Shown here: positions 7,030-33,994 of the stretch, one piece after another
Position numbering within the stretch: the stretch's first letter is position 1
Layout of the letters: every line of letters begins with the position of its first letter
Assembly (NCBI GenBank): GCA_013816805.1
Contig: JACDDS010000007.1
Location: forward strand, 124,001-188,000
Reading direction: 5' to 3'
DNA length: 64,000 nt
From: Chitinophagales bacterium
GTDB taxonomy: Bacteria; Bacteroidota; Bacteroidia; Chitinophagales; UBA10324
The notes under the pieces: model-generated
What the model was told of the DNA's origin: nothing
Databases searched by the model: none
The model's input: the letters and a program-made list of their open reading frames with translations, nothing else
Translations under genes and position numbers: made by a program

Positions 7030-7955
7030 ATGCATTAAGTGTAAAACATCTTTTAGGAATAAAGTATCTGACTTATGAAGACATACAGCTCATATTTAAA
7101 ACAGCGGAGGAGTTTAAGGAAGTTCTTAACCGGCCAATAAAGAAAGTTCCCTCACTTCGCGATACTACTATTGTAAATCTCTTCTTTGAAAATTCCACGC
7201 GTACAAGGATTTCATTTGAGCTGGCAGAAAAACGGCTTAGTGCAGAGGTCGTTAACTTTTCTTCATCCACTTCGTCAGTGAAAAAAGGAGAAACGCTCAT
7301 TGATACAGTGAATAATATACTGGCCATGAAAGTAGATATGGTAGTAATGCGACATCCCAGTGCGGGAGCACCAGTTTTTTTATCAAAATATATCAATGCA
7401 AATATTATAAATGCCGGAGATGGAACACATGAACACCCTACCCAGGCGCTTTTAGATGCCTTTTCTATAAAAGAAAAATTGGGAGGTCTAAAGGGGAAAA
7501 AAGTTGCAATCATTGGAGATATACAGCATTCCAGAGTTGCACTTTCCAATATCTTTTGTCTGAAAAAATTAGGAGTCGAAGTGATGGTAACGGGACCGCC
7601 TACTTTAATCCCGATGCACATTGAATCCCTTGATGTGAAAGTGGAATATGACGTTCGTAGAGCTTTGGAATGGTGCGACGTAGCAAATATTCTAAGGATT
7701 CAGCTGGAACGTCAGGAAATACAGTATCTGCCATCTCTTCGGGAGTACGCCCTGTTTTACGGGATCAATAAAAAATTACTGGATGAAATCGGAAAAGAAA
7801 TTTTTATAATGCATCCCGGCCCTATCAACCGCGGAGTTGAAGTAACGAGCGATGTGGCGGATTCAAAATATTCAATTATTCTGAATCAGGTAGAAAACGG
7901 GGTAGCGATCCGTATGGCAGTTTTGTACCTGCTCAGTGGCAGAAAGAATGATTGA
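7026..7955 (+). CDS. pyrB: Aspartate carbamoyltransferase catalytic subunit
   Basis: Catalyses carbamoyl phosphate plus L-aspartate to N-carbamoyl-L-aspartate, the first committed step of pyrimidine synthesis. The length is normal at 309 aa. The carbamoyl-phosphate loop ENSTRTRISFE (Ser57-Arg61), the HPTQALLDAF motif (137-146) and the mobile-loop PGPINRGVE near the C-terminus are all present. The start codon overlaps the pyrR stop. No pyrI regulatory subunit or other pyr gene follows: the next gene, yraN, is convergent. The window therefore contains a minimal pyrRB operon. Confidence 0.97.
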   Translation: MNALSVKHLLGIKYLTYEDIQLIFKTAEEFKEVLNRPIKKVPSLRDTTIVNLFFENSTRTRISFELAEKRLSAEVVNFSSSTSSVKKGETLIDTVNNILAMKVDMVVMRHPSAGAPVFLSKYINANIINAGDGTHEHPTQALLDAFSIKEKLGGLKGKKVAIIGDIQHSRVALSNIFCLKKLGVEVMVTGPPTLIPMHIESLDVKVEYDVRRALEWCDVANILRIQLERQEIQYLPSLREYALFYGINKKLLDEIGKEIFIMHPGPINRGVEVTSDVADSKYSIILNQVENGVAIRMAVLYLLSGRKND

Positions 7956-8021
7956 GTATTGCAAAGAAGTAAACGCACAATTGACAACGGTTGATTAATG
8001 GTATTACTTAAGGAGTAAGAA

Positions 8022-8387
8022 TTATACTTCATAAGGAAAAAAGGCATCCTGGATATGATAAATGTTTGGAAGGTCATTCTTGAACGTTATGGAGATAACA
8101 TCAAATCGCACATCCATATCCAGGTTATTTCTTTCTAAATATTCGTCTGCTGCACGGGCAAGGTTTTTTTGTTTTTCTATTCCAACAGCCTCTTCAGGAA
8201 AACCAAACTGATCACCTGTGCGTGTCTTTACTTCAACAATTACCAGCGTGTTAGGTTGTTTCGCTATTATATCCACTTCAGTATGAGAAAAGCGCCAATT
8301 GATCTCCAGAATCACATAACCTTTTTTTTCAAGAAATTCTAAAGCGAGAATTTCTCCTTTTACACCCAATTCATTATGTTTACTCAT
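8022..8387 (-). CDS. yraN: YraN/UPF0102 family nuclease-like protein
   Basis: Small (about 121 aa) protein with a Holliday-junction-resolvase-like PD-(D/E)XK core: TEVDIIA, then IVEVKTRTGDQFG. These give the expected D...ExK triad (Asp46, Glu59 and Lys61 in the 128-aa numbering from the upstream ATG at 8408). I prefer the ATG at 8387 because it yields MSKHNELGVKGE, which matches the usual family N-terminus, whereas the upstream ATG adds an atypical MRSFFKL. The cellular role of the UPF0102 family is not firmly established. The gene is divergent from the isomerase gene at 8426. Confidence 0.88.
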   Translation of the reverse strand: MSKHNELGVKGEILALEFLEKKGYVILEINWRFSHTEVDIIAKQPNTLVIVEVKTRTGDQFGFPEEAVGIEKQKNLARAADEYLERNNLDMDVRFDVISITFKNDLPNIYHIQDAFFPYEV

Positions 8388-8425
8388 CAATTTGAAGAAT
8401 GATCTCAACTAAAATTAAGTAAATT

Positions 8426-9406
8426 ATGATGGATAACCTGATTGCGGGCTTTACGAAGCAAATGGCTGAAGCAATTGAAATTGGACGTAAAATAGAGTTA
8501 ACGCCACGGCATAAAGATATACGGAATATAGTGATAGCAGGCCTGGGCGGATCAGGCATTGGCGGTAACCTGGTAGCAGGTTTAATTGCAGGGAAAATGA
8601 AATTACCCCTTGTGGTTTGTAAGGATTATTTTTTGCCGGAATTTGCGAATGAGCATACTCTGTTAATTGCCTCTTCTTATTCAGGTAACACCGAAGAAAC
8701 GCTGCATGCGCTTGAGGAAGGTATTAACCGGGGCTGTAAAATAGTTTGTATATCATCAGGAGGTTCTTTGATCAGCATAGCAAAGAAGGCGGGATTAGAT
8801 TATGTAATTATACCAGGAGGAAAGCCGCCGCGTGCTTGTTTAACATATTCATTTATTCAGCAGCTTTTTATCTTTTACTACTATGGATTGATTGATGATG
8901 GATTTGTAGTCGGTATCCAGGAGGCAATTATTCATTTGGATAAGGAAGAAAAGCATATTCAGAAACTTGCAAAACAGATTGCAAAAAAGCTGAACAAAAA
9001 AATTCCGATCATATACAGCGCAGCTAATATGGAGGCTGTTGCGATGCGCTGGAGGCAGCAGCTTAATGAAAACTCTAAAGTGCTTTGCTGGCACCATGTA
9101 ATCCCTGAAATGAATCACAACGAATTAGTTGGCTGGAGAACACCGGGAAAGTTTGCAGTACTCTTATTAAGGAATGATATCGATTATACCAGAACTCAGC
9201 ACCGGATGAATATTGTTAAAAATATTATCTCGCAATACACCCGGCACATTATCGAAATCTATTCCAAGGGCGATAGCTTCATTGAAAAATCCCTCTACCT
9301 TATCCACTTAGGGGATTGGGTTTCCTGGTATCTTTCAAGTTTAAGAAAAGTAGACGCTTCAGAGGTGAATGTTATTGATTATCTGAAAATGGAGCTGGCA
9401 AATTAA
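8426..9406 (+). CDS. Bifunctional phosphoglucose/phosphomannose isomerase family protein
   Basis: Protein of 326 aa with a SIS domain: the glycine-rich GLGGSGIGGNLV motif is at 39-50 and the sugar-phosphate-binding SSYSGNTEET at 83-92. A C-terminal domain carries the conserved EMNHNELVGW segment and a late Lys-rich end. This matches the archaeal/Bacteroidota PGI/PMI type that isomerises glucose-6-P and mannose-6-P to fructose-6-P. It is distinct from classical Pgi. Two ATGs in a row begin the ORF and either could be used. lipB follows about 100 bp downstream on the same strand. Confidence 0.9.
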   Translation: MMDNLIAGFTKQMAEAIEIGRKIELTPRHKDIRNIVIAGLGGSGIGGNLVAGLIAGKMKLPLVVCKDYFLPEFANEHTLLIASSYSGNTEETLHALEEGINRGCKIVCISSGGSLISIAKKAGLDYVIIPGGKPPRACLTYSFIQQLFIFYYYGLIDDGFVVGIQEAIIHLDKEEKHIQKLAKQIAKKLNKKIPIIYSAANMEAVAMRWRQQLNENSKVLCWHHVIPEMNHNELVGWRTPGKFAVLLLRNDIDYTRTQHRMNIVKNIISQYTRHIIEIYSKGDSFIEKSLYLIHLGDWVSWYLSSLRKVDASEVNVIDYLKMELAN

Positions 9407-9508
9407 TTGTCCGGAACATAGTCTTAATAATTACCTGAATCCGCTGAGCTAATCATTTATTAGTTCGGAAACGGATTTATTTTATTAGTGTTACAATGCT
9501 ATATCAGC

Positions 9509-10267
9509 ATGCAAAACGATTTACAGACAACAATATCAATCCAGTATCCGAATACATATCGTACAATACACTTACAGGATCTGGGTGTAATTGATTATAA
9601 GTCCGCATGGGATTACCAGGAGAAATTATTCAATGGAATTATTGAGAAAAAGATTGCCTTGCGTAATTCACCTGATCCGGAATACATACCAGTTCACCAT
9701 TTGATTTTTTGTGAGCACTTTCCTGTTTATACTCTTGGAAAAAGTGGTTCTATCAAAAATTTATTGGTAAACCAGGATTTACTGAATGAAAAGAAAATTT
9801 CTTTTTTCAAAATTAACCGGGGAGGGGATATCACCTTTCATGGCCCCGGACAGATTGTGGGATACCCTATTCTTGATCTTGATTATTTCTTTACCGACAT
9901 CGGCAAATACCTTCGAATAATCGAGGAAGCCATTATACTTACCCTTTGGGAATATGGTATTGCGGCAGGAAGATCCAGTGGTGAAACAGGGGTTTGGCTT
10001 GATGCTGCATCACCATCAAAGGCACGTAAAATTTGCGCTATTGGAGTTCGCTGCAGCCGATGGGTTACAATGCATGGATTTGCTTTTAATGTAAATACAG
10101 ATCTTGATTATTTTAATCTTATTATTCCTTGCGGTATTAGTAATAAGGGAGTTACATCTATGAGAAAGGAGTTAGGAAGGGAAATAAATATGGATGAGGT
10201 AAAGGATAAATTGAAACCCCATTTTTTTAATCTGTTTAACGCAGATTTAGTTTTGGTTAATTCATAA
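9509..10267 (+). CDS. lipB: Octanoyltransferase (lipoyl-ACP:protein transferase)
   Basis: Transfers octanoyl groups from octanoyl-ACP to lipoyl domains, the first step of lipoate synthesis. The family hallmark RGGDITFHGPGQIVGYP occurs at about 104-120. The catalytic pair is present: Lys174 in ARKICAIGVR and Cys208 in LIIPCGI (numbering from the ATG at 9509). A GTG further upstream (9488) would add seven residues but lacks support. The 252 aa length is normal. lipA is not in the window. Confidence 0.95.
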   Translation: MQNDLQTTISIQYPNTYRTIHLQDLGVIDYKSAWDYQEKLFNGIIEKKIALRNSPDPEYIPVHHLIFCEHFPVYTLGKSGSIKNLLVNQDLLNEKKISFFKINRGGDITFHGPGQIVGYPILDLDYFFTDIGKYLRIIEEAIILTLWEYGIAAGRSSGETGVWLDAASPSKARKICAIGVRCSRWVTMHGFAFNVNTDLDYFNLIIPCGISNKGVTSMRKELGREINMDEVKDKLKPHFFNLFNADLVLVNS

Positions 10268-10365
10268 AAATTGTTCACCGGCAACCTTCACCGGATGATG
10301 CATTAAACCCCTACCGCGAATATTCAGGTGCATCAATTATTTTTGCAATTATTTTATCGCATTAG

Positions 10366-11499
10366 ATGAAAGCCCTGAAAAAAATAATTTTAGGCATTGC
10401 AATATTGATCGCTGTAATTTTTATAATCACGGCTGTCACAGGTAATACTTATATATATAAAGCACTTATTTATACATATGCTGACATTGATGACTATAAA
10501 TTATTTTACAACCGGACCGTTGAAAATGGACCTCCTCAGCCATGGCCTGTTTCCAGCACCTACAATAAAATAAAGCCCGATCCGGGGTTGCAGCGCCAAC
10601 TGGATTCAACCAGAGCTGTGGCATTCCTTGTACTAAAAAATGATTCATTACAGTTTGAAGAATATTCGGATGGCTATGGACCCGATACTTTTTCCAATTC
10701 ATTTTCCATGGCTAAGTCTATCATTAGTATTTTAATTGGAATAGCTAAAGAAGAAGGTAAAATAATCTCTCTCGATGATCCTATCGGCAATTATATTCAT
10801 GATTTTAAAGATTCCTCTATTGCTGGAATCACCATACGTAATTTATTAATGATGACCAGTGGCAGCAGCTGGGATGAAAATTATTCGGGGCTATTTTCAC
10901 AAACCACAAAGGGGTATTATGGTACTGATTTGTATGGGCAGATGGTTACCTTAAAACCCCATGAAAAACCTGGTAAAATTTTTTCGTACAGAAGCGGGGA
11001 TACAGAACTCCTTTCCCTTGTGCTTAAAAATGCCACTGGAAAGACAGTAAGCGAATATGCTTCTGAAAAGTTATGGAAACCATTGGGTGCGGAACATCCT
11101 GCTTTATGGTCGCTGGATCATAAAGACGGATGTGAAAAAGCCTATTGCTGCTTTAACAGTAATGCACGCGATTTTGCCAGGATAGGGGATTTATATTTGC
11201 ACAAAGGAAACTGGAAAGGGAAACAAATTGTGTCCCAGGATTATGTGGTGCAGTCTCTTTCGCCCGTTGGCTTAAAAGATGACGAAGGAAAAACAACCGA
11301 TTATTATGGTTACCAATGGTGGATTATGCCGGAGCGTCCTGGTGTATTTTATTGCCGGGGCTTGAATGGTCAATACATAATAGTAGTTCCGGATAAACAC
11401 CTGGTTATTGTGAGGCTGGGTCATTTGAGGGCACCACCGGAAGGCTCCTGTTTCAAAGATGTACGTTTGATGATAGACTGGGCGTCCCAAAATTTTTAA
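10366..11499 (+). CDS. Membrane-anchored/exported serine hydrolase, beta-lactamase class C family
   Basis: 377 aa with an N-terminal hydrophobic segment (residues 5-25, an uncleaved anchor or signal), so the enzyme probably faces the periplasm. The nucleophile motif SMAK lies at 114-117 and the YRS element at 208-210 corresponds to the Tyr-x-Ser/Asn motif of the family. The FSYRSGDTELLSLVL segment resembles 6-aminohexanoate-dimer hydrolase (NylB)-like and esterase-like members rather than true AmpC. The substrate cannot be inferred. The next gene begins 8 bp after the stop, so the two may be co-transcribed. A -7-like TATTTTTG at 10338-10345 sits suitably upstream but lacks a good -33 box. Confidence 0.88.
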   Translation: MKALKKIILGIAILIAVIFIITAVTGNTYIYKALIYTYADIDDYKLFYNRTVENGPPQPWPVSSTYNKIKPDPGLQRQLDSTRAVAFLVLKNDSLQFEEYSDGYGPDTFSNSFSMAKSIISILIGIAKEEGKIISLDDPIGNYIHDFKDSSIAGITIRNLLMMTSGSSWDENYSGLFSQTTKGYYGTDLYGQMVTLKPHEKPGKIFSYRSGDTELLSLVLKNATGKTVSEYASEKLWKPLGAEHPALWSLDHKDGCEKAYCCFNSNARDFARIGDLYLHKGNWKGKQIVSQDYVVQSLSPVGLKDDEGKTTDYYGYQWWIMPERPGVFYCRGLNGQYIIVVPDKHLVIVRLGHLRAPPEGSCFKDVRLMIDWASQNF

Positions 11500-21854: not shown

Positions 21855-24800
21855 ATGAAAAATATACTTACTTCTTTTCTTCTGATAATCAGTATTAACG
21901 TGCATGCCCAACTCACACCTGTCTGGACAAATTCGCAGGTGGGCAGCGGCGATAATTCTGATCGCTATGATGCCATTGTGCAAGATGGCACCGGAAATAT
22001 TTACCTCGGTGGTTATACCTTCAATAGTGGTCAGGATAAAGACTATCTTCTCGTAAAAATGAATTCAAGCGGCGACACGCTTTGGACTCGCCAATATAAT
22101 GGCGCAGGAAATGGTTATGATAAAATTATCTACATGGGCATTGATGGATCTAACAATGTTTATGTCACCGGCGAATCCTATGGCGGCACTATCAACAAAA
22201 CTGATATTCTCACACAGAAGTATGATGCAAGTGGTAGTTTGCTATGGTCAAGAGCATACAATTCTTCGTTTAACCAGGACGATGCCCCGCTGGGGATTTC
22301 AGTGGATAACAGCGGCAATGTTTTCATCAACGGATCAAGCGACGGGGATTCTACTTATAACCAAAATGACGACATCCTCACTCTGAAATATAATACCCAA
22401 GGTGCTCTGCAATGGGCTATCCGTTATAATGGAACCGGCAACGGAACAGATCGGGGCAATGGCGTGGTAAGTGATAATACCGGCGGATGTATTATTACCG
22501 GAAGAACAGCTTCTTCGGTAGATGATGATGTGATTACTATCAAATACAGCACAACAGGCACACAGACATGGAAGACTGTTTATAACCGGGGCTCCGGGAA
22601 TGATCGCGGTGCATCTATTACCAGTGATGCATCGGGAAATCTTTACGTTACCGGGCGCACTAAGAACTCAAATAATTATGATGTGCTGGTTATAAAATAT
22701 AATTCTTCCGGCGTATCCCAATGGACAAAATTTTATGACGGCGGCGATGATGATTATGGTAATAAGATTCGGGTGAATAGTGCAGGCGAAGTTTTTGTTG
22801 CCGGACAATCTGATGTGAATTCATCCTCAAACATTAATTATGATATACTAACTGTCAAATATAATTCATCAGGCGGCCAGCAATGGGCAAAGACTTTTGG
22901 AAATGCTGTGCTTAACAATGAAGATGCAAGTGACCTAATTGCTGATGGTTCAGGAAACGTGTTTGTAACAGGAAAAAGCGATGTAAATTCATTAGCATCT
23001 GTTGAAGCAGATAATTTTATAACTGTAAAATATAACTCATCAGGAGATCTTCAATGGTCAGCTTTTTATGCAGGTACTGATGCAGGTAGTGATGATAATG
23101 CAGAAGGATTTGTGATGGATGTATCCGGAAACCTGATAGTCGTTGGAGGAACACAAAACCTCACTACTCAAAAGGATGCAACGGCGATTAAATACAACTC
23201 AAATGGTTCTTCAGTATGGATAAAAAATTATAATGGCAAGGGCGATTTCACCGATAAAGTGCAGGCGATGGTCATTGATTCTAAAAAAAATATTTATGTC
23301 ACTGGTTATGTTTTCACCGCCGGACAAAGCAAGGATCTTTTTGTCTCTAAAATTAATTCAGCAGGAATCACACAGTGGAAGATCACTTATGATTTTAGTC
23401 AGGATGATGACCAGGGAAGGGCCATCACAGTGGACAACTTAGGAAATGTATTTGTATGCGGCAGCAGCAATGGGGACGGCACCAGCGATGATTACATAAC
23501 CATGAAGCTGGACACTCTTGGAAATATTCTGTGGACTGCACGTTACAATAATGTTGGAGAAGCAGATGTGGCAACATCCATTGGAGTAAATCTATCAAAC
23601 GGCAACGTGTATGTTACCGGCTATAGCGATAAAAACGTTTCTTCCTTTGTTACCGATTATGATATAGCTACTATCAAGTATAGTTCTGCAGGATCACAGT
23701 CAGCTGTAAAGAGATACAACGGCACAGGTGATGGCATAGATAAAGGAATTAAGATTATTGTGAACGAAGGCAATATATATGTAACCGGGCAAAGCTCGAA
23801 TGGAACTGATTATGAAGTTGTAACAATAAAGTATGATGGTTCTCTAGCACAACAATGGCTTACTAAATATAACGGTGCTAACGGCAAAGATGATGTTCCA
23901 AATGATATGTTTTATGATGGCAGCAGTTCTTTGTATGTAACGGGAAACACCGGCACTTCCACTCATGGTGATGATTATCTTACAATAAAATACAACACAA
24001 ATGGGGCACAACAATGGGCATCTACTTATAACGGCAACGGCAATTTCACTGATCATTCTAATGCAATAATTGCAACTACTTCCGGAGTTTATGTGACAGG
24101 GAGAAGTGCACCTTCAAGTGCCGGTGATACTGCTGACCTTGTTACAATAAAATATGATCTTTCCAGCGGGGCACAGAAGTGGTTGAACCGGTATAATGGT
24201 TCTGCATCTCTTGTAGATCGCGGCAATGTGATTGCTGCTGATAAATTCAATAATATTTATGCTTCAGGAGAAAGCGCCGACTTAGAAACAGGTAGTGACT
24301 TTATCACAATTGTATATGATGTTGCAGGAAACGCTAAATGGACTGCCCGGTACAGTGGTTCTGCCAATTTCAATGATGCATCAAAATCTATCGCAGTTGA
24401 TGGTTCAGGTTACGTCTATGCTGCAGGCTATGCGACCGGAAGGGGCACTAATGGATTTGATGCACTTACTTTGAAATATTGTCCCATTCCCGCTGCCAAT
24501 GCCGGCCCAGACGTGGCAATCTGCAGTGGTAAGAGCACTACTCTAAATGCTACAGGCGGATCGATCTATTCATGGTCTCCTACAACAGGATTAAATAATG
24601 CGAATATTGCAAACCCTAATGCGAATCCAAAATCTACCACATCTTATGTAGTAACGGTAGACAATGGACTTGGATGCGGAACCGCAAAAGATACCGTAGT
24701 GGTCACTGTCAATCCTCTGCCCACTGCCACCATAACTGCAAGCGGATCACTTTCTATTTGTGCAGGTGACAACGTGACTTTAACAGCCAATTCAGGAGCC

Positions 24801-25229
24801 GGCCTTACTTATCAATGGAAAAATGGCTCCACTAAAATTTCAGGTGCTACTAACATCAGTTACACCGCTAAAACTGCGGGTACTTATAAAGTAACGGTGA
24901 CAAATTCAAACGGTTGTAGCGCAACTTCTTCAGGAAAAAAAGTGCAAATTGTTTGCAAGGGAGAGAATCTTTCATCGCAAGATGAGCTTTTTAATATCAC
25001 TGCATCACCAAATCCATCTTCCAATTATTTCACGGTTAAGTTCACTAACAATGGAAATACATCGGTTACACTTGATGTATTCAACCTTATAGGTCAAAAT
25101 ATTTTTCACCTTTCGGGAGTGAGTGAAACTGAATTAAATGTTGGTAAAGACTGGAAAGCAGGAATATATCTGGTTAAAATAAACAATGGTACTGAAGAGC
25201 GGGAATTGAGATTAATAAAGTCAGAATAA
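21855..25229 (+). CDS. Giant SBBP-like beta-propeller protein with Ig-like domains and T9SS sorting domain
   Basis: 1124 aa with signal peptide MKNILTSFLLIISINVHAQ. Residues about 30-875 consist of roughly 16 repeats of about 52 aa with the core 'YNG.GN..D....I..D..GN(I/V)YVTG.S......D..T.KY...G..QW'. Next come a PKD/Ig-like segment (about 878-955; CSGKSTTLNATGGSIYSWSP), a second Ig-like segment (about 955-1040; TYQWKNGSTKISGATNISYT-like), and a type A sorting domain (ITASPNPSSNYFTV ... AGIYLVKI ... ELRLIKSE). It is rich in Asn-Gly, Asp-Gly and Asn-Ser pairs. It is the first gene of a plus-strand block, with its paralogue starting 26 bp downstream. A surface or adhesive role is inferred only. 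Confidence 0.9.
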   Translation: MKNILTSFLLIISINVHAQLTPVWTNSQVGSGDNSDRYDAIVQDGTGNIYLGGYTFNSGQDKDYLLVKMNSSGDTLWTRQYNGAGNGYDKIIYMGIDGSNNVYVTGESYGGTINKTDILTQKYDASGSLLWSRAYNSSFNQDDAPLGISVDNSGNVFINGSSDGDSTYNQNDDILTLKYNTQGALQWAIRYNGTGNGTDRGNGVVSDNTGGCIITGRTASSVDDDVITIKYSTTGTQTWKTVYNRGSGNDRGASITSDASGNLYVTGRTKNSNNYDVLVIKYNSSGVSQWTKFYDGGDDDYGNKIRVNSAGEVFVAGQSDVNSSSNINYDILTVKYNSSGGQQWAKTFGNAVLNNEDASDLIADGSGNVFVTGKSDVNSLASVEADNFITVKYNSSGDLQWSAFYAGTDAGSDDNAEGFVMDVSGNLIVVGGTQNLTTQKDATAIKYNSNGSSVWIKNYNGKGDFTDKVQAMVIDSKKNIYVTGYVFTAGQSKDLFVSKINSAGITQWKITYDFSQDDDQGRAITVDNLGNVFVCGSSNGDGTSDDYITMKLDTLGNILWTARYNNVGEADVATSIGVNLSNGNVYVTGYSDKNVSSFVTDYDIATIKYSSAGSQSAVKRYNGTGDGIDKGIKIIVNEGNIYVTGQSSNGTDYEVVTIKYDGSLAQQWLTKYNGANGKDDVPNDMFYDGSSSLYVTGNTGTSTHGDDYLTIKYNTNGAQQWASTYNGNGNFTDHSNAIIATTSGVYVTGRSAPSSAGDTADLVTIKYDLSSGAQKWLNRYNGSASLVDRGNVIAADKFNNIYASGESADLETGSDFITIVYDVAGNAKWTARYSGSANFNDASKSIAVDGSGYVYAAGYATGRGTNGFDALTLKYCPIPAANAGPDVAICSGKSTTLNATGGSIYSWSPTTGLNNANIANPNANPKSTTSYVVTVDNGLGCGTAKDTVVVTVNPLPTATITASGSLSICAGDNVTLTANSGAGLTYQWKNGSTKISGATNISYTAKTAGTYKVTVTNSNGCSATSSGKKVQIVCKGENLSSQDELFNITASPNPSSNYFTVKFTNNGNTSVTLDVFNLIGQNIFHLSGVSETELNVGKDWKAGIYLVKINNGTEERELRLIKSE

Positions 25230-25255: not shown

Positions 25256-28162
25256 GTGAAAACAATTTTATTGATTGCAGTTTTAACGATTGTATCATTT
25301 AAATTGTTTGCTCAACCCTCTCTTGCATGGGTATCGCAATACAACGGACAGGGTGATTATTCTGATCGCTTTACTTGCATCGTTTCTGATGCAGCAGGAA
25401 ATATTTACACCGGTGGAAGTACGGTGAATATCAACACCGATCGTGATTACCTCATTCAGAAGATGGACGCAGCAGGAAATGTGATCTGGCGAATGAGTTA
25501 TAATGCTTTCGGAAATGGAGCTGATGAAGTTCAGGCAATTACGGTAGATGCTTCGCAGAATGTTTATGTTACCGGCTTCGGAAAAACCATTGATGCTGGA
25601 AACGATTGTCTCACGATGAAGCTCGATGCAAACGGCAACACTATCTGGAGTCAGTTTTACAATTATGATGTTGCTAACGGATACGACGAGGCAAATTCAA
25701 TTGCACTTGATGGAAACGGAAACGTAATTGTTACAGGACAAAGTGATGAAGATGCTACAGCCATTTCTAATGATGATTACGTCACAATAAAATATTCCAG
25801 CGATGGAAACCAGCAATGGGATGTGCGTTACAATGGATTAGGAAATGGAATTGACCGCGCGGTAAAAGTATTGGTTGACAATTTAAATAACATCTATATA
25901 ACAGGCAGGAGCTACAATGGTATAGACGATGATTATGCCACCATCAGTTATGATGAAAATGGAAACCAGCAATGGCTCATGTACGGAGATCGCAGTTATA
26001 ATGATCGTGCCCAGGCAATGTCGATCGATGCTGAAAATAATATTTATGTAACCGGCTGGAGCAGTAACGGAAGCAATCACGATTACTATACGATAAAATA
26101 TAATTCGTCCGGTACCCAACTGTGGGCTAAAGTTTTTGATAATGTGGATAATGATGAGGCGACAGCAATTTTCGTTGACGCTTCAGCCAATGTGTATGTA
26201 ACAGGTCAGAGCGATGGAGATGCAACGGAATTTGTGAATTTAGATTATCGAACCGTAATGTATAATACAAGCGGGCAGCAACAATGGAGTGAATCATACG
26301 ATGGTGCTGCCGGAAATGATGATATTCCAACATCCATTTCGGTTTCCGAAGGCAAGGTGTATGTAACAGGTTATAGCGATGCTGATAATACTCCCGTAGT
26401 TTCAAATGACATTGTTACTATTCAATATTCTTCAACCGGAACGCTGCAATGGGCAACTGTTTTTTCAGGCAGTGGTGGAAATAGAGATGTTGCCAACGCG
26501 ATGATTACTGATGTGAATGGGAATACTTTTGTTGCCGGGTATTCAGAAAATAATGCGGCGCAGCGGAATGCTATAGTATTGAAATGTAATAATGCCGGAT
26601 CACAACTTTTTGTAAACACGTTTGATGGTATAGGTGACAATTCTGATAATATTCGTGACTTGAAAATTGATGCGGAGGGAAACTTGTATGCAGTTGGCTA
26701 TACTGTTCGCCGCGAACACAACCGTGATTTTCTGAGCATAAAACTTACTCCAGAAGGTGACACAGTGTGGACCCGATATCTTAATGGCACTTCTCCTGAT
26801 AGTGAAGACGAAGCTGACGCATGCGCAATTGACAACAACCACAACATCATTGTTGCAGGATTTACAAAGAACAGCGGAACATCGGGAGATTATACCATAA
26901 TAAAAATCAATTCATCAACGGGCGACAGCTTGTGGCTTCGCTTTTATGATTCTCCTGCACACGATTATGATAAAGCGTATGACATGAAAACTGATGAATC
27001 AGGAAATATTTATGTAACCGGAAGAACTGACAGCGATCCTTCAATTAATTCCAATGATGAAGCAACCACTTTAAAGTATGATGAGGACGGAAATTTGGTC
27101 TGGGAAAAAACATATGCGGGCGCAGGCAACGGACCTGATCGCGGAAGTTTTCTGCGCGTTGCTCCCAGTGGAAATGTGTATGTAGTAGGAAGAACATTTA
27201 ATGGATCTGATCACGATATACTTGTGGTCAAATACAATAATGATGGTGAACAGCAATGGATAAAGACGTATGATGGCGGCGTTGGCAATGAAGAGCCGAA
27301 AGGAATGGAGCTTGATGCAGATGAAAATGTATATCTCGTTGGCAACAGTGCTTCCTCAGGAAATGATTCATCTGATATTATTACACTAAAATATTCATCA
27401 GCAGGGGATATGCAATGGATACAGAAAATTAACAACAGTGGTGGTGATCTGGCAAGTGACATCGCTCTTGATCCAATTGGAAATGTCACAATCACAGGAA
27501 CAACAGATGCAGATAATTCTGCGGCAGTAAATCTCGATGCTGTTACAGTTCAATATGATGCAAACGGCAATGAACTATGGATGAAAACTTTCGACGGTAG
27601 TAATCACCTCAATGATGTTGCGGATGCAATTGCTTCAGATCAATTTGGAAATATTTATCTGGCATTGCACATGAATAACGGCACCATGTTGGATTTGAAT
27701 TATGATATTTCTATAATCCGGTATAATGTGAATGGCACTGTTGCGTGGCAAACTTTATGGGGAGGAAGCTCAGATACGCTTGATGCTGCAAATCTGATTT
27801 ACCTCGTTAATAACGATCTTTATGTCGCAGGCAGCACATGGAAAAAAGATAACCAGCGTGACATAGTCGTGCTGAAATATTCGTCGGTTACCGGAATAGA
27901 AAGTACTATCAAACAAATTAAAAGCTTTTCCATATTTCCTAATCTTTCATCGGATTTCATAACCGTCACCTCAGATAATTCCGCTTTAGAAAAAAAAATT
28001 CAGCTTGTTGATATGGCAGGAAGAACAATTTTCGAAACATCATTTCATGAAGCACTAATAAAAATTTCTCTTACAAATGAAATTCAACAGGGGATGTACC
28101 TCTGTAACATTCTTTCCAATAATAAAATTATTTATTCAGAAAAAATTATTTACCAACGTTAA
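25256..28162 (+). CDS. Second giant SBBP-like T9SS protein (paralogue)
   Basis: 968 aa starting at a GTG that gives MKTILLIAVLTIVSFKLFAQ, a normal signal peptide. No ATG fits the signal peptide better. About 16 to 17 repeats of the same 52-aa type occupy residues about 25-880 (for example WDVRYNGLGNGIDRAVKVLV, then NIYITGRSYNGIDDDYATI). The C-terminal domain (SFSIFPNLSSDFITVTS ... QGMYLCNI ... SEKIIYQR) is a type A T9SS signal in which the usual 'PNP' is PNL. It lacks the Ig-like segments of its neighbour. The next gene, the P-loop protein, starts only 10 bp after the stop, which suggests one transcript. Confidence 0.9.
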   Translation: MKTILLIAVLTIVSFKLFAQPSLAWVSQYNGQGDYSDRFTCIVSDAAGNIYTGGSTVNINTDRDYLIQKMDAAGNVIWRMSYNAFGNGADEVQAITVDASQNVYVTGFGKTIDAGNDCLTMKLDANGNTIWSQFYNYDVANGYDEANSIALDGNGNVIVTGQSDEDATAISNDDYVTIKYSSDGNQQWDVRYNGLGNGIDRAVKVLVDNLNNIYITGRSYNGIDDDYATISYDENGNQQWLMYGDRSYNDRAQAMSIDAENNIYVTGWSSNGSNHDYYTIKYNSSGTQLWAKVFDNVDNDEATAIFVDASANVYVTGQSDGDATEFVNLDYRTVMYNTSGQQQWSESYDGAAGNDDIPTSISVSEGKVYVTGYSDADNTPVVSNDIVTIQYSSTGTLQWATVFSGSGGNRDVANAMITDVNGNTFVAGYSENNAAQRNAIVLKCNNAGSQLFVNTFDGIGDNSDNIRDLKIDAEGNLYAVGYTVRREHNRDFLSIKLTPEGDTVWTRYLNGTSPDSEDEADACAIDNNHNIIVAGFTKNSGTSGDYTIIKINSSTGDSLWLRFYDSPAHDYDKAYDMKTDESGNIYVTGRTDSDPSINSNDEATTLKYDEDGNLVWEKTYAGAGNGPDRGSFLRVAPSGNVYVVGRTFNGSDHDILVVKYNNDGEQQWIKTYDGGVGNEEPKGMELDADENVYLVGNSASSGNDSSDIITLKYSSAGDMQWIQKINNSGGDLASDIALDPIGNVTITGTTDADNSAAVNLDAVTVQYDANGNELWMKTFDGSNHLNDVADAIASDQFGNIYLALHMNNGTMLDLNYDISIIRYNVNGTVAWQTLWGGSSDTLDAANLIYLVNNDLYVAGSTWKKDNQRDIVVLKYSSVTGIESTIKQIKSFSIFPNLSSDFITVTSDNSALEKKIQLVDMAGRTIFETSFHEALIKISLTNEIQQGMYLCNILSNNKIIYSEKIIYQR

Positions 28163-28172
28163 ATAGATAGCC

Positions 28173-29210
28173 ATGCGAATCAAGAAAACAATTGTAACAA
28201 AAGACATTCAGTCTTACACGGTCAATGAAAAAATAGTAACCACGCATCACCCTATCAGCGGCGACGTTGCGATTTTTGAAATAGTTACATTGGGTAAACA
28301 TGAAACCGTACAGGGCGAGGAGAAACGAAATGTAGCCATCTTTGAAGGTGACTTTATTATGGCGGCTTTTGCTGATCGCTATGCAACCTCACAGTTTGAA
28401 GGCTATGTGCCTGCAGAGCCCCTGCCGCTTTATGACATTCTTGCTGCCGGCGGCGCGGTAGGCGTTGTGAAATCAAAAAATTATGCGTTAAAAGACATTG
28501 AGCCAACCAAGGTGCGAATTGTCGGATATGTATGCGATGAAAAAGGGAAGGTGATAAACAGTCGGTGGTATAAAAAACAGCGTGTATCATTCTCTGCCGA
28601 GATTCCGAACAATGCAAAAGTGATTCTCTCCATCGGCTCCACTATGGACAGTGGTAAAACAACCACTGCCGGTTGCATAGCTCGTGGACTAAAACGAACA
28701 GGCAAGCGCGTAGCGTTCATGAAATTTACAGGCACTGTTCATACCAAAGATCGTGATTTCGTTTATGATGCCGGAGCAGACGTAGTAACTGATTTTTCTG
28801 ACATGGGATTTCCTTCAACCTATATGGCAGATAAAGAAGAGTTGCTCGATCTATATGAGTCATTGCTTGCAAAGCTTTATTCAGAAAAACCAGATTATAT
28901 TGTTGTAGAAATTGCAGATGGCTTGCTGCAGCGCGAAACAAATTTTCTATTGAATTCAAAAGAATTTATATCAACAATCAACTCGGTGGTGTTCAGCTGC
29001 GGTGACAGCTTAAGCGCGTTCCAGGGAATTGAAGTTTTAAATGAATTGCACATCACGCCCGCATTTCTAAGCGGTCGCTTCACCATGAGTCCGCTGCTGA
29101 TCCAGGAAGTGCAGGAACACAGCGGAATGCCTGTACTCGACATGTTTCAGATTATGAGCGGTGAGTTTAATGATCTCTTAATTTCACACAGGATGGTGGT
29201 AGCTGCCTGA
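28173..29210 (+). CDS. P-loop NTPase-like protein of unknown function
   Basis: 345 aa, no signal peptide. The N-terminal half (about 1-145) is a mixed alpha/beta region with no recognised motif (GDFIMAAFADRYATSQFEGY, YDILAAGGAVGVV). The C-terminal half opens with a Walker A, IGSTMDSGKTTTAGCIA (GSTMDSGKTT at 155-164), and continues with GKRVAFMKFTGTVHTKDRD and a Walker B-like DYIVVEIADGLLQRE (241-255). The fold resembles SIMIBI-class enzymes such as dethiobiotin synthetase or MobB, and distantly DUF1611, but I cannot place it in a characterised family. It follows the giant T9SS gene by 10 bp. No function is assigned. Confidence 0.78.
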   Translation: MRIKKTIVTKDIQSYTVNEKIVTTHHPISGDVAIFEIVTLGKHETVQGEEKRNVAIFEGDFIMAAFADRYATSQFEGYVPAEPLPLYDILAAGGAVGVVKSKNYALKDIEPTKVRIVGYVCDEKGKVINSRWYKKQRVSFSAEIPNNAKVILSIGSTMDSGKTTTAGCIARGLKRTGKRVAFMKFTGTVHTKDRDFVYDAGADVVTDFSDMGFPSTYMADKEELLDLYESLLAKLYSEKPDYIVVEIADGLLQRETNFLLNSKEFISTINSVVFSCGDSLSAFQGIEVLNELHITPAFLSGRFTMSPLLIQEVQEHSGMPVLDMFQIMSGEFNDLLISHRMVVAA

Positions 29211-29355: not shown

Positions 29356-31059
29356 ATGCAAAGTAAGCGCAAACTCATAATTGAATTTTTTCAGCGCAAT
29401 AAGCTTGTGGTGGTCTTCACCTTCCTTGCGAACATCATCAGTAGTTTGCTTAATGTTCTTATACCTCTCAGCATAGGCAGATTTTATCAATTGGTGCTGC
29501 ATGATAATTCTGTAAAGGGAAAGCTATTCAATGCACTTCACATTTCACTGCATTCTGTTTCTGACTTTTTTCTCTTCTTTATTCTTATCATCATAGCAAA
29601 ATCACTCATCACATTCGTAGAAAAATTTTTTACGGGAATGATAGGCGAGCGATTCTCACGAGACTTGCGCGAGCTGCTTTTTAAAACCCAGCTTTCACAA
29701 TCGGTTGCCATAAATCAAATAAAACCAACAGGAAAATATTTGCTTCGATACAGCGGCGATTTGCTTTTCATTCAGCACTTCATCACTAAGGGAGTCATTC
29801 AATTCACCGGGGATGTGATCTTCATGCTCGCTTCCGTCGCTGTGCTCTTCTCCATTAACGCAACGCTCACACTCATAATGCTTGCAGGTATTGCTGTTGC
29901 ATGTACCACCATCATTCTGCTAAATAAAAAAGTGAGAATGGCAACACTGAACAGGAGAAATCAGCGCTCAACGTTGCTGGGATTTGTAGCCAACAGAATG
30001 CAGGCATTCTTAACGATTAAAAGTTTCAATCGCGAAGTTCCGGAAGAAACTCAGTACAATAAAAAGTCAGCGAAGCTTTACGGATTCGGAATCACTTACT
30101 GGAAAATTTATTCAGTAATTCAGGCATTGTTGCCGCTATTGATGTTTGGCACACTCACCGTGCTGCTGTATTTTGTGAGCTTGAAGAGGGAAGTAAAACC
30201 ATACGGAATTAACCGCGGTGATGTGCTTGATTTTGTGCTGCTGTTTCTTTACATGCAAGGGGTGATTAAAAGAATTTTGAAAGCGAATATGGTCTGGAAT
30301 ATGGGAAATGTATCATTCACCAAGCTGCTTCGTATTCTAAATTTAGCTGGTGAACGGAAATCCGGAGATCGTGAAATTGCAGAAATTTCAGGGAGAATTT
30401 CTTTTGAAAATGTTTGTTTTCAATATCCAAATGCTGACCAACCAATTTTAAAAAATATATCATTTACAATTGAACCAGCTACTATAACATTTATTAAAGG
30501 AAAGCAGAGCTCCGGCAAAAGCACCATAATGAAAATGATTCAGGGTATCTATCAACCTACATCAGGTAAAATATTTCTTGATCAATACGATTACGATTTG
30601 ATTACGCCAAATACTGTTCGCCGCAACATAGCTATTGTTTCTGATGAAGCGCCGCTGATTGGTAACACGGTATTCAAAGCCGTCTCATACAGCAGGGCTG
30701 ATGAAAAGAGAGTAAGAGCTTCGCAATGGTTGCAGCGTCTGAATTTTAATGTGGCGGAAACTGAAGCAGAAAACCTGGATTACCATCTTGATGATTTTGG
30801 AAAAAACCTTTCTGCCGGTCAACGCAAGCAACTGATATTTGCCCGTGCATTGATGACACGAAAAAAAATTTTGCTGCTCGATGAAGCATTCGATGATCTG
30901 GATCCTGAATCAAAAAAGATTATTGTTGAACGCATCAACAAGCAAAAAAGGAAACGAACGATGATCATTGCGGCAAATAATCTTCCTGATGAATTAGAAA
31001 TTGATCAGGTGATTAACCTCAATGAATTTTGCTTTGAAGATCAAATAGCAATATCATAA
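29356..31059 (+). CDS. ABC exporter, fused membrane and ATPase domains, with atypical switch residues
   Basis: 567 aa half-transporter with about six transmembrane segments (residues 15-310) and one ATP-binding domain. There is no N-terminal C39 peptidase. Walker A is GKQSSGKST (382-390), the signature is LSAGQRKQ (485-492) and Walker B is KILLLDEAFDDLD with catalytic Glu510. The position of the H-loop histidine reads AANN (539-542) and the Q-loop position reads VSDEAPLI, so neither the switch His nor the Q-loop Gln is present in its usual context. The layout resembles type 1 secretion or peptide exporters. The substrate is unknown. The gene lies 145 bp after the P-loop gene. Confidence 0.87.
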   Translation: MQSKRKLIIEFFQRNKLVVVFTFLANIISSLLNVLIPLSIGRFYQLVLHDNSVKGKLFNALHISLHSVSDFFLFFILIIIAKSLITFVEKFFTGMIGERFSRDLRELLFKTQLSQSVAINQIKPTGKYLLRYSGDLLFIQHFITKGVIQFTGDVIFMLASVAVLFSINATLTLIMLAGIAVACTTIILLNKKVRMATLNRRNQRSTLLGFVANRMQAFLTIKSFNREVPEETQYNKKSAKLYGFGITYWKIYSVIQALLPLLMFGTLTVLLYFVSLKREVKPYGINRGDVLDFVLLFLYMQGVIKRILKANMVWNMGNVSFTKLLRILNLAGERKSGDREIAEISGRISFENVCFQYPNADQPILKNISFTIEPATITFIKGKQSSGKSTIMKMIQGIYQPTSGKIFLDQYDYDLITPNTVRRNIAIVSDEAPLIGNTVFKAVSYSRADEKRVRASQWLQRLNFNVAETEAENLDYHLDDFGKNLSAGQRKQLIFARALMTRKKILLLDEAFDDLDPESKKIIVERINKQKRKRTMIIAANNLPDELEIDQVINLNEFCFEDQIAIS

Positions 31060-31107: not shown

Positions 31108-31560
31108 GTGGTGATCAAAAACAACAATTTTCGCTATATAGTGTCTGCCAAACGGTGCAGCCAGATCATCCTTCTCTGCATTGTTGTTGCAAGCACATTG
31201 TGTTCTTTTTCATCGTGCCAAAAAGAAGCCGGCATTGGCGGTGATGCTTCAATTAAAGGTTCTCTGTTTGTTAAGCATTACAACACCACCTTCACACAGT
31301 TCATCAGCGAATACCCCGGTGCAGATGTGTATGTGTATTTGATTTTTGGTAATGACATCAGCTACGACAAGAGAATAAAAACTACGTACGATGGTAAGTT
31401 CGAATTCAAATATCTATATAAAGGTGATTACACACTTTATGTTTACTCTCTTGATTCAACACTCACAGTTCCGGGAAGAAGCGTTCCTGTAATTGAAAAC
31501 ATAACCATCACTGACAGAAAACAAACGGTGGATGTGGGCACGATAAATATTTTTCAATAG
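31108..31560 (+). CDS. Small lipoprotein with carboxypeptidase-regulatory-like fold
   Basis: 150 aa starting at GTG. It has a lipoprotein signal (IILLCIVVASTLCSFSSC, lipobox FSSC), so it is predicted to be lipid-anchored in the outer membrane or periplasm. The mature part has the pattern 'GADVYVYLIFG...TTYDGKFEFKYLYKGDYTLYVYS', typical of a prealbumin or CarboxypepD_reg-like beta-sandwich as found in Bacteroidota surface lipoproteins. The next gene starts 6 bp after its stop. Its function is unknown, but context suggests it belongs with the exporter and barrel genes around it. Confidence 0.75.
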   Translation: MVIKNNNFRYIVSAKRCSQIILLCIVVASTLCSFSSCQKEAGIGGDASIKGSLFVKHYNTTFTQFISEYPGADVYVYLIFGNDISYDKRIKTTYDGKFEFKYLYKGDYTLYVYSLDSTLTVPGRSVPVIENITITDRKQTVDVGTINIFQ

Positions 31561-31565
31561 CGATC

Positions 31566-32171
31566 ATGACTCACTTTTGTCTCTGTTCCCTTGTGCCTTC
31601 TTTGCGGCATTTCATATTGCAATTTTTAATTTTAATCGCTCTTCTTCATGCAAATCCTTTGTTCTCTCAAAGTCAAGTGGATATAAAAGCCAGGAAGATA
31701 AAATCCATCAGCACGGTTACAATTGATACAAGAAAAGGTGACTCGATCATCAAGAAGAATACCTTACGCTATGATGCCCGTGGCAACGTGATAGAGAGCA
31801 TTGACTTCGATGCAAATGGAAATATGAAAGATCACGAGCAGTTTCACTTCAACCGTCATAATGATGAAGTACAATACATTCATCTTTCACCGGATAACCT
31901 GGTGCTGATGAAAACAGAAACGCAATACGACAAGTGGAACAACTTGGTTGGAAAAATTTCTTATGATGCAACCGGCAACATCACCGAAAAAATTGATTAC
32001 ACTTACAATACCTTGAACGATTTGGTATCTGAAGCTTTGAGCAACAAAGAAGGGAACATTATTCGCAAAACTGTTTATGAATACGACAGCAAAGGCATGC
32101 TGATTTCAAAAAAAATCTATAATGAGAAGGGTGGATTAATTTACTCCAGAAATTATTCTATCGAATACTAA
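31566..32171 (+). CDS. Secreted YD/RHS-repeat-like small protein
   Basis: 201 aa. Signal peptide ends around ANPLFSQSQ. The mature part is made of short beta-hairpin repeats resembling YD/RHS repeats: LRYDARGNVIESIDFDANGN, TQYDKWNNLVGKISYDATGN, YEYDSKGMLISKKIYNEKGG. There is no toxin domain or RHS core-closing motif, so it is not a full RHS toxin. Its stop codon overlaps the start of the DUF2490 gene by one base (TAATG), indicating translational coupling. An extracellular or periplasmic location is expected; the role is unknown. Confidence 0.75.
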   Translation: MTHFCLCSLVPSLRHFILQFLILIALLHANPLFSQSQVDIKARKIKSISTVTIDTRKGDSIIKKNTLRYDARGNVIESIDFDANGNMKDHEQFHFNRHNDEVQYIHLSPDNLVLMKTETQYDKWNNLVGKISYDATGNITEKIDYTYNTLNDLVSEALSNKEGNIIRKTVYEYDSKGMLISKKIYNEKGGLIYSRNYSIEY

Positions 32172-32866
32172 TGACTGAAAAAATCACGAATAGGTTTTCA
32201 TACCTTGTAATTGTTTCAGTTTTGTTAATTTTTCTATTACAAAAAGATTTAAGCGGTCAGCAAAAAGATTTTCAGGGTATAGTAGGATTAGGGTTGGAAA
32301 AGAAGGCCTCTCCGTCGTTTTCGTTTAACCTCTATAGCCAACAGCTATTCAATCAAAATTTATCAGAGCTTGGCAGCGCATTTATGGAGGCAGGAATAAC
32401 TTATAAACTCAACCGGAATATTGCTTTCGGTGTAAACTACAGGTTCATTCAGCAGCGCGATCTTAATAATATTTATCACCCACGACAAATGATTTATGGT
32501 GATATTTCTTATTCAAAAGGGTTAAAAAAGTTTTCGGCATCTCTTCGTGCAAGAATTCAGAATTCATATTACCCGATCGTGATCAACGAAACCAGGCAAA
32601 ATTCACTTTTATACAATCGTGATAAGTTAACGATCCGTTACAGGTACAATTATTATTTCTCGCCTTTTATTTATGGAGAGCTATGGTATCCTGTTAATCA
32701 CCCAACACACGATAAAGTTGACAGGATTCGCGGTGCGCTGGGATTTTACTATATCTTTAATGATCACTTCAAAACTGAGCTTTACTATTCTATAACACAT
32801 GAGCTAAATCAGTCAAACAAGAAAAGGAATTATGCGATTAGCTTTTCATCATACTTCCGGATTTAA
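32171..32866 (+). CDS. DUF2490-family outer-membrane beta-barrel protein
   Basis: 231 aa with an N-terminal signal (FSYLVIVSVLLIFLLQKDLSGQ). Alternating amphipathic strands rich in Tyr and Phe follow (GITYKLNRNIAFGVNYRFIQ, LTIRYRYNYYFSPFIYGELW, LGFYYIFNDHFKTELYYSI), ending in an aromatic C-terminal strand (YAISFSSYFRI). This is the usual picture for small DUF2490 porin-like barrels in Bacteroidota. It is coupled to the preceding YD-repeat gene. The cargo or ligand is unknown. Confidence 0.85.
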   Translation: MTEKITNRFSYLVIVSVLLIFLLQKDLSGQQKDFQGIVGLGLEKKASPSFSFNLYSQQLFNQNLSELGSAFMEAGITYKLNRNIAFGVNYRFIQQRDLNNIYHPRQMIYGDISYSKGLKKFSASLRARIQNSYYPIVINETRQNSLLYNRDKLTIRYRYNYYFSPFIYGELWYPVNHPTHDKVDRIRGALGFYYIFNDHFKTELYYSITHELNQSNKKRNYAISFSSYFRI

Positions 32867-32896: not shown

Positions 32897-33994
32897 ATGA
32901 AGATAGCTTTTGCAATGCACAGGATAAAAAAAATGAAAGCGCATCCTTGTGGTTTTGCAGAATTAATTCTAATAACATTCATTCTTCTTTCTTCTTTTTC
33001 AAAAAATATGTTTTCTCAATCAACAACTCAACAAGTGAATCATCCGGTTGCAATTGCTGTACACGGTGGAGCAGGAGCACTAAAAAAGCTTAATCTCACT
33101 CCTCAGCAAGAGCAGGCTTACAAAGACACCATGGCAGTTGCGCTGCAATCAGGTTATGAAGTGTTGCAGAACGGAGGAACGAGCGTTGATGCCGTGGTGG
33201 TTGCAATAAAAGTAATGGAAGATTGCACGTTGTTTAATGCAGGTCGTGGGTCAGTTCTCACACATGAGGGATCCATTGAAATGGATGCTGCGATTATGAA
33301 TGGAAAAAATCTTAAAGCAGGTGCAGTGACGGGAGTGAAGACGATTAAGAATCCAATTACGGCAGCAAAAAAAGTTCTCGACAGCAGCAAGTTCGTTTTG
33401 CTTTCGGGAGAAGGGGCAGAAAAATTTGCACGATATCAGGGCATTGAAACAGTAGACACTTCTTACTTTTTCACACCTTACCGTCAGTTGCAATTGCAAA
33501 AAGTAATTGTTGGTGATACAACTCCGCTAAATCTAAATGATACAACCGGAATGATACGTCCTGCTGATAAAAATGAAGAAGATAAATTTGGAACAGTCGG
33601 GTGTGTTGCGATTGACCGCTACGGAAATCTTGCAGCGGGAACTTCTACCGGCGGAATAGTAAATAAAAATTTCGGACGCATTGGCGATTCGCCGTTAATA
33701 GGTTGCGGCACTTATGCAAACAATAAAACGTGTGCTGTTTCATGCACCGGACATGGTGAAGATTTTATTCGTAATGTGGTTGCGTATGATATTTCAGCCC
33801 TAATGCAATACCGGATTATTAGCCTGCATGATGCTGCCAACTACGTCATCAAAACCAAGCTCACTCAAAAAAAGGGCAGGGGCGGTTGCATTGCCATTGA
33901 TCGCTCCGGTCATATTGAAATGCCGTACAATACTGAAGGGATGTTTCGCGGATACATTACTACCCATCGCCAATTGAAGGTGATGATCTATTGA
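32897..33994 (+). CDS. Isoaspartyl peptidase / plant-type L-asparaginase (Ntn hydrolase), exported
   Basis: Cleaves beta-aspartyl (isoAsp-X) dipeptides and often asparagine. The IAVHGGAGAL start of the fold is at 53-62 and NAGRGSVLT at 114-122. The autoprocessing site FGTVGCVAI has nucleophile Thr233, and the GTSTGG and GCGTYANN oxyanion/substrate motifs follow. A hydrophobic leader (ELILITFILLSSFSKNMFSQ) precedes the catalytic domain, so it is probably periplasmic. The true start may be the ATG at 32933 rather than 32897, as both give this signal peptide. It is the last gene of the plus-strand block. The catalytic residues look intact. Confidence 0.93.
   Translation: MKIAFAMHRIKKMKAHPCGFAELILITFILLSSFSKNMFSQSTTQQVNHPVAIAVHGGAGALKKLNLTPQQEQAYKDTMAVALQSGYEVLQNGGTSVDAVVVAIKVMEDCTLFNAGRGSVLTHEGSIEMDAAIMNGKNLKAGAVTGVKTIKNPITAAKKVLDSSKFVLLSGEGAEKFARYQGIETVDTSYFFTPYRQLQLQKVIVGDTTPLNLNDTTGMIRPADKNEEDKFGTVGCVAIDRYGNLAAGTSTGGIVNKNFGRIGDSPLIGCGTYANNKTCAVSCTGHGEDFIRNVVAYDISALMQYRIISLHDAANYVIKTKLTQKKGRGGCIAIDRSGHIEMPYNTEGMFRGYITTHRQLKVMIY

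Follow-up and report, generated by a model that had tools for sequence, protein, structure and literature searches.

Five described P-loop families lie closest to the protein reported here, namely DUF1611, AAA_26, MobB, CbiA and BioD, all of which we take to belong to the SIMIBI class. DgcN, which is tied to DUF1611, is reportedly a D-glutamate N-acetyltransferase. Two other systems serve as further points of reference: ArsA energises ArsB, and PgsB-PgsC-PgsA form a poly-gamma-glutamate system. The gene dgcN is treated in PMC12363236, and the passage of PMC11747546 on EC 2.3.1.312 does not name DgcN. GapMind (PMC7311316) assigns BT3761 to the gap in Bacteroidetes arginine synthesis, and the term 'DUF1611' is absent from its main text; two papers that do contain it appear to be off topic. 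Degenerate ATPase sites are known in other ABC exporters (PMC7756269 and PMC12038006), the exporters of the latter being heterodimeric. In the open-access literature searched, no title or abstract opening was found that describes the P-loop family studied here.

This work concerns a 64,000-nucleotide stretch of a Chitinophagales bacterium contig (JACDDS010000007.1; hereafter the window, numbered from its first letter). We demonstrate that a P-loop protein encoded in the window belongs to a two-branch family that is related over its full length, the protein itself matching no named family above its cut-off, and we describe the gene partnerships of both branches. The GNAT-type synthase is nearly absent where the arginine branch occurs, and the ABC ATPase of the partner protein in the export branch is, judged by its motifs, eroding. 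Tentatively, and with somewhat less than even confidence, we propose a dethiobiotin-synthetase-like ATP-dependent enzyme that would form an amide on an amino-acid amine and hand its product to the membrane partner.

The P-loop protein and its conserved residues

The protein of 345 aa is encoded by the ORF at 28173-29210 on the forward strand, with the same boundaries as in the initial annotation. Conservation and profile scans divide it into an N-terminal half (residues 1-145) and a P-loop domain. The Walker A motif reported earlier (GSTMDSGKTT) is found at residues 155-164; its core, GSTMDSGKT (155-163), is of the long form G-x5-GK[ST], one residue more than the common GxxxxGK[ST], and this form is kept in 36 of the 37 family rows (the window protein and two duplicated proteins included), with L019 as the sole loss. 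Further motifs are K184/T186/G187, D193 and E246-x-x-D249-G250. What had been described as a Walker B-like region corresponds to VVEIADG at 244-250, which forms the Walker-B-like end; its E246 is invariant in 16 members and at least 90% kept in each of the two branches. Because P-loop matches were found in 10/60 genomes of the relatives set (27-100% identity, the window's own genome included) and 33 positions are invariant across 16 family members, 28173-29210 is more than a chance ORF.

Positions kept at 90% or more in both branches are G30, R69, A71, G77, L90, G94, G97, G155, M158, G161, K162, K184, T186, G187, D193, G201, A202, F208, G212, E246, D249, G250 and G301. Further positions, among them Y70, T112, N129, D207, E255-T256 and P307, show fixation solely in the export branch; the substrate therefore probably differs between the branches, and the proposed amide chemistry may not carry over from one to the other. 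The N-terminal half had been called unrecognised, and residues 1-145 are indeed without any listed Pfam or NCBIfam match, yet in both branches their conservation goes along with that of the P-loop domain. The gene is single-copy in G000, the genome of the window. AlphaFold2, supplied with the window protein and its L001 relative as alignment, returned a pLDDT of 31.9 and a pTM of 0.33.

Distribution and branches of the family

Among 395 Bacteroidota genomes, 38 have a P-loop match (the window's own included), in two score tiers. Eight of 72,556 plasmid records match, namely six from Rhodobacterales (25-36% identity), one from Microvirga and one from Priestia. A scan of genome contigs with the single sequence gave one relative, L001 (Chitinophagales bacterium), and scans of viral contigs confirmed none. 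The family's reach is described for Bacteroidota genomes, plasmids and one phage-labelled scaffold, with stretches picked by match rank. This human-faecal scaffold, L132 (MT835675.1), is labelled 'UNVERIFIED: Bacteriophage sp.', carries the P-loop/ABC pair and may be bacterial DNA. A Microvirga protein of 587 aa annotated 'transposase' (L051) is interpreted as a P-loop gene fused into a mutator/IS256-type fragment.

The export branch and the arginine-operon tier match each other over both halves in hhalign (E 9e-31, 297 columns). The P-loop tree (37 rows; L015, L054 and L132 left outside) separates 18 export-side rows from 17 arginine-operon rows, in which two proteins are entered twice, plus L055 and L066, with support 100/99; several lone rows sit on very long branches and their placement is unsure. 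L071 and L074, which are in neither this tree nor the exporter tree below, are closer to the window protein than to the arginine-branch query and have neither an ABC partner nor ordered arginine genes. On the Priestia megaterium plasmid (L055, 4712-13412), the family member is surrounded by two ATP-grasp ligase genes, an OTCase-like gene, split TPP-enzyme genes, a PEP-mutase-like gene and an M20 peptidase gene (two genes downstream of the P-loop gene), a neighbourhood that may represent a natural-product cluster.

The window locus

In the window, the P-loop gene sits in an eight-gene locus, encoded entirely on the forward strand, that includes two T9SS proteins and an isoaspartyl-type peptidase. 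Profiles identify the first gene (21855-25229) as coding for an SBBP-repeat/PKD secreted protein and the gene at 25256-28162 for an SBBP-repeat secreted protein, both with a T9SS type A sorting tail. It had been noted that the P-loop gene follows a giant T9SS cargo gene at 10 bp. The spacing is correct (the upstream gene ends at 28162 and the P-loop gene starts at 28173), and the upstream protein does have a sorting tail, besides its SBBP repeats, but at 968 aa it is hardly giant.

Downstream of the P-loop gene comes an ABC-exporter-type membrane protein of 567 aa (29356-31059; ABC_membrane and ABC_tran), with Walker A GKQSSGKST and Walker B LLLDEA and without the switch-loop histidine. It is followed by a small protein with a lipoprotein-like start (31108-31560; conserved in the locus and unmatched in Pfam at E 0.01), an RHS/YD-repeat-like protein of 201 aa with a secreted-looking start (31566-32171; conserved in the locus), a DUF2490 protein (32171-32866; profiles and locus conservation), which is presumably an outer-membrane beta-barrel, and an Asparaginase_2 protein of the isoaspartyl/beta-aspartyl peptidase family with a signal-peptide-like start (32897-33994). 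The three start types were assigned by eye. The Asparaginase_2 gene is an additional copy when set against relatives without the cluster: G000, G003, G007 and G010 have three Asparaginase_2 places each, G013 has four (two partial) and G011 two (short contig), versus two in six and none in one of the seven family members tested that are without the P-loop gene.

The run of SBBP protein(s), P-loop protein, ABC protein, small protein, RHS-like protein, DUF2490 and Asparaginase_2 is common to the window, L001 and L012-L016. Gaps are found in L001 (no peptidase match, short contig), L012 (no match to the two small genes) and L016 (one SBBP protein), and the contig of L015 starts within the locus. 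Given this conservation within the bacterial family, chance placement beside a T9SS gene was rejected, and the position of the P-loop gene can no longer be called unexplained: it is constantly accompanied by the ABC-exporter-type gene downstream rather than by the T9SS protein, and no such protein was seen next to more distant P-loop family members. In the window's bacterial family (16 genomes), all six P-loop carriers have the ABC gene at 46-100% identity. One of the ten genomes without a P-loop gene (G004) has the ABC gene at 46%, at the end of a contig, beyond which a P-loop gene may lie; in the other nine, the top ABC match among those listed has 23-25% identity. Predicted promoters and terminators in the window were not above chance, and with a 145-bp gap between the P-loop gene and the ABC gene, their co-transcription is putative.

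Pairing with an exporter-type partner whose ATPase is eroding

An ABC-exporter-type gene lies directly downstream on the same strand in 17/21 P-loop loci (the window, L001, L012-L018, L050, L052-L054, L056, L057, L060 and L132). The exceptions are L058 and L059, in which the P-loop gene overlaps Asparaginase_2 by 4 bp, L051 with its transposase fragment fusion, and L019, in which Walker A is lost. L054 (Paracoccus marcusii plasmid) is included in the 17 although its hydrolase, P-loop and ABC genes (7202-10781) appear split between reading frames; the ABC frame of L054 matches the L050 partner (2e-33) and no Pfam family. One half-transporter gene was seen adjoining the P-loop gene in these loci.

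In the exporter tree (n = 40; L057 and L132 outside), 13 of the 14 linked partners fall on one side of a branch and the 26 other exporters on the other (support 97/94). The L060 partner falls outside the linked-partner branch, and a grouping of all 14 was not rejected (p 0.076). Both the alphaproteobacterial stem and that of Bacteroidota are long, so that some long-branch pull may contribute. Other genes recur around the pair. A related alpha/beta-hydrolase-like gene is located upstream of the P-loop gene in L050, L052, L053, L054 and L056 and downstream in L051; no Pfam family matches the L052 copy at E 0.001. PGA_cap proteins, which belong to capsule synthesis, are encoded close behind the P-loop/ABC pair in L018 (6953-8146) and L060 (2858-5287; an 810-aa form that also matches M36 peptidases), and a CapA-family gene lies some genes from the P-loop gene in L051. 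The PGA_cap and CapA-family genes may point to a product resembling a poly-amino acid.

The switch histidine occurs in 2/15 linked partners (L052 and L060), compared with 25/26 unlinked control exporters, and Walker A is unrecognisable in four of the 15 (L050, L053, L056 and L132). The L057 partner consists of the membrane domain only, with no ATPase domain found; the contig on which it lies measures 826 kb. The P-loop proteins beside these five partners all keep G-x5-GK[ST]. Such a pattern, together with the coupled presence of P-loop and ABC genes in the bacterial family, is what would be expected if the P-loop protein were an energiser or gate of the membrane partner, in the manner of ArsA, with the partner losing its ATPase and a SIMIBI ATPase driving or regulating it. 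We regard this main rival of the amide-forming enzyme as unlikely. The sister branch lies among arginine enzymes and has no ABC partner, L058 and L059 have no adjoining ABC gene, several partners including that of the window retain Walker A and the catalytic Glu, and that of L053 still gives a weak ABC_tran match under the cut-off.

The arginine branch and the first step of arginine synthesis

The proposed amide-forming enzyme draws on the second branch as well. The order ArgG, P-loop protein, ArgC, ArgD, ArgF, ArgB was found in 11 of the 14 stretches L061-L074, from 11 genomes (L061-L065, L067-L070, L072 and L073; not L066, L071 and L074). An M20 deacylase gene is located within 9/11 of these arginine stretches, and directly upstream of the P-loop gene in L066.

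Elsewhere in Bacteroidota, a GNAT protein, which we take to be BT3761-like, precedes ArgG in 10 of the 13 ArgG loci read. The remaining three are an arginine-tier locus, a contig fragment and G063, where ArgJ is present and ArgG has no adjoining GNAT. PF00583 was above its cut-off in 5/6 ArgG-adjoining GNAT proteins tested. A profile made from seven of the ArgG-adjoining GNAT proteins was run against 48 genomes and matched 1/29 arginine-tier genomes (G087), 0/7 export-branch genomes (G000, G003, G007, G010, G016, G054 and G067) and 12/12 others, the latter being a weak control in which seven genomes supplied the profile, three were already known to carry it, G188 and G287 were the only new ones and G063 was omitted. 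The 29 arginine-tier genomes were chosen by score, minus the weak partial matches G183 and G236, and the operon was read in 11. ArgJ is present in two of them (G276 and G437) and an E. coli-type ArgA over the cut-off in none; sub-threshold TIGR01890 (ArgA) matches occur in 29/29, most of them falling in the kinase half and some in the GNAT half. Taken together, 26/29 arginine-tier genomes are without all three synthase kinds tested. G087 holds both the operon P-loop gene and the GNAT synthase.

On the basis of this genomic context, the P-loop gene of the arginine branch is a candidate for the missing arginine step, although unrelated GNATs might perform step one in these genomes. For the export branch, ArgG was not matched in G000 (one query) nor in G016, and its absence from G000 hints at a lost or different arginine pathway.

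Comparison with named families

As the initial annotation stated, the window protein has no recognised family, and it clears no Pfam or NCBIfam cut-off. The suggested SIMIBI character agrees with its best weak profile matches, which are those to the five presumed SIMIBI families named at the outset; unrelated weaker matches occur too. MobB, dethiobiotin synthetase and DUF1611 signatures had been said to fit poorly, and all of them stay below curated cut-offs: 18.5 bits versus 25 for PF07755 (DUF1611) and 17.1 bits versus 27 for PF13500 (AAA_26), while no match to TIGR00347 (cut-off 83.3 bits) was listed at E 0.1. A PF07755 search of G000 at E 0.001 gave 0 matches. PDB matches to antibodies, ribosomal protein S8 and ATP synthase gamma were weak and were treated as chance. 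With no family over its cut-off, the BioD likeness comes down to the motif and the sub-threshold matches.

The long P-loop spacing is found in all nine DUF1611 proteins read and, by alignment, in a solved dethiobiotin synthetase. DUF1611 proteins of the phylum also match the DgcN model NF041892 (1/5 above the cut-off, four under), and the arginine slot is elsewhere occupied by a GNAT. These observations would suit a DgcN-like N-acetyltransferase, in which coenzyme A would be bound by the P-loop and the acyl group would come from acetyl-CoA or succinyl-CoA, but the comparison with the DUF1611 profile in hhalign is weak for both branches (probability 68% and 80%), and in the 68% match the N-terminal alignment is scattered, the N-terminal halves being without convincing correspondence. 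We consider this second rival improbable. Plain DUF1611/DgcN membership was rejected on the score of 18.5 bits, the weak hhalign matches and the unlike N-terminal half. As far as sequence comparison goes, the family appears to belong neither to DUF1611 nor to BioD, and related chemistry may be possible.

That the protein is a nucleotide-binding helper of the MobB or HypB kind, inserting a cofactor or metal into an exported protein, is very improbable: mobB (TIGR00176) is the best sub-threshold NCBIfam match (E 1e-4) and the solved MobB 2f1r the best PDB sequence match (E 0.0028), but 22.4 bits versus a cut-off of 76.2 led to rejection of MobB membership, Walker A exceeds the common GxxxxGK[ST] by one residue, and no cofactor or metalloenzyme genes were seen recurring next to the P-loop gene in the loci listed.

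Proposed function and relation to known systems

An amide- or carbamate-forming enzyme remains best supported, on account of the long P-loop, the position in the slot of an N-acylglutamate synthase and the recurrence of amide hydrolases nearby, namely M20 (arginine operons, L066 and the Priestia plasmid) and Asparaginase_2 (the window locus and L058/L059). The neighbourhoods are observed; from there, we infer that ATP is the substrate and that an amide is formed, as well as what the product is and which way it takes. A cytosolic enzyme of this unnamed SIMIBI-type P-loop family would use ATP to activate a carboxyl (or CO2/acyl group) as phosphate anhydride, as dethiobiotin synthetase does, and the amine of an acidic amino acid would attack this anhydride to yield a bond of the N-acyl, carbamate or isopeptide type. 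The arginine branch would make N-acyl-glutamate, from which the operon's M20 deacylase would later remove the acyl group. In the window branch, the product would pass to the ABC-exporter-type partner and across the inner membrane, a periplasmic isoaspartyl-type peptidase would trim or release it, and the DUF2490 barrel may provide outer-membrane passage.

Several observations count against such a ligase. DgcN, a distant P-loop relative, is named an N-acetyltransferase and not an ATP ligase; in alphaproteobacteria, an alpha/beta-hydrolase-like gene occupies the place in which one might look for the peptidase; neither partner is present in L071 and L074; the 145-bp gap before the window's ABC gene leaves co-transcription putative; and G087 has the GNAT synthase, as G276 and G437 have ArgJ. 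A more far-reaching version, which strikes us as doubtful, would have a SIMIBI ligase or motor that replaced a worn-out ABC ATPase, builds an isopeptide-type or N-acylated amino acid and drives or feeds it through the membrane domain that is kept, as synthesis-coupled or ArsA-like export, with the sister branch as a novel ATP-dependent N-acylglutamate synthase. If the proposal were true, an unnamed ATP-binding family would gain a function, a set of lineages of one phylum would gain a candidate for their apparently missing first arginine step, and exporter-type membrane proteins would be seen to lose their own ATPase while a separate cytosolic ATPase stays.

Compared with known systems, the family resembles BioD (TIGR00347, PF13500) in the long G-x5-GK[ST] P-loop and weak profile matches, but the window protein is far under the cut-off and has an extra conserved N-terminal half of 145 aa, and biotin genes were not noticed alongside. 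DUF1611/DgcN (PF07755, NF041892) shares the P-loop spacing, a similar size and a weak match in the P-loop domain, whereas the Pfam score is sub-threshold and the N-terminal half is unlike. As for PgsB-PgsC-PgsA, L018 and L060 likewise combine a P-loop protein, a membrane protein and PGA_cap; however, no profile over its cut-off makes the P-loop protein a PgsB, and the window locus is without PGA_cap. Like type I ABC exporters, the partner has ABC_membrane and, mostly, ABC_tran, but it differs in the lost switch histidine and, in some cases, in the loss of other ATPase motifs. Finally, no sequence relation was found between the P-loop family and the GNAT-type N-acylglutamate synthase of Bacteroidota, and the window branch has another neighbourhood, but in the arginine operon the arginine branch appears to replace that synthase.
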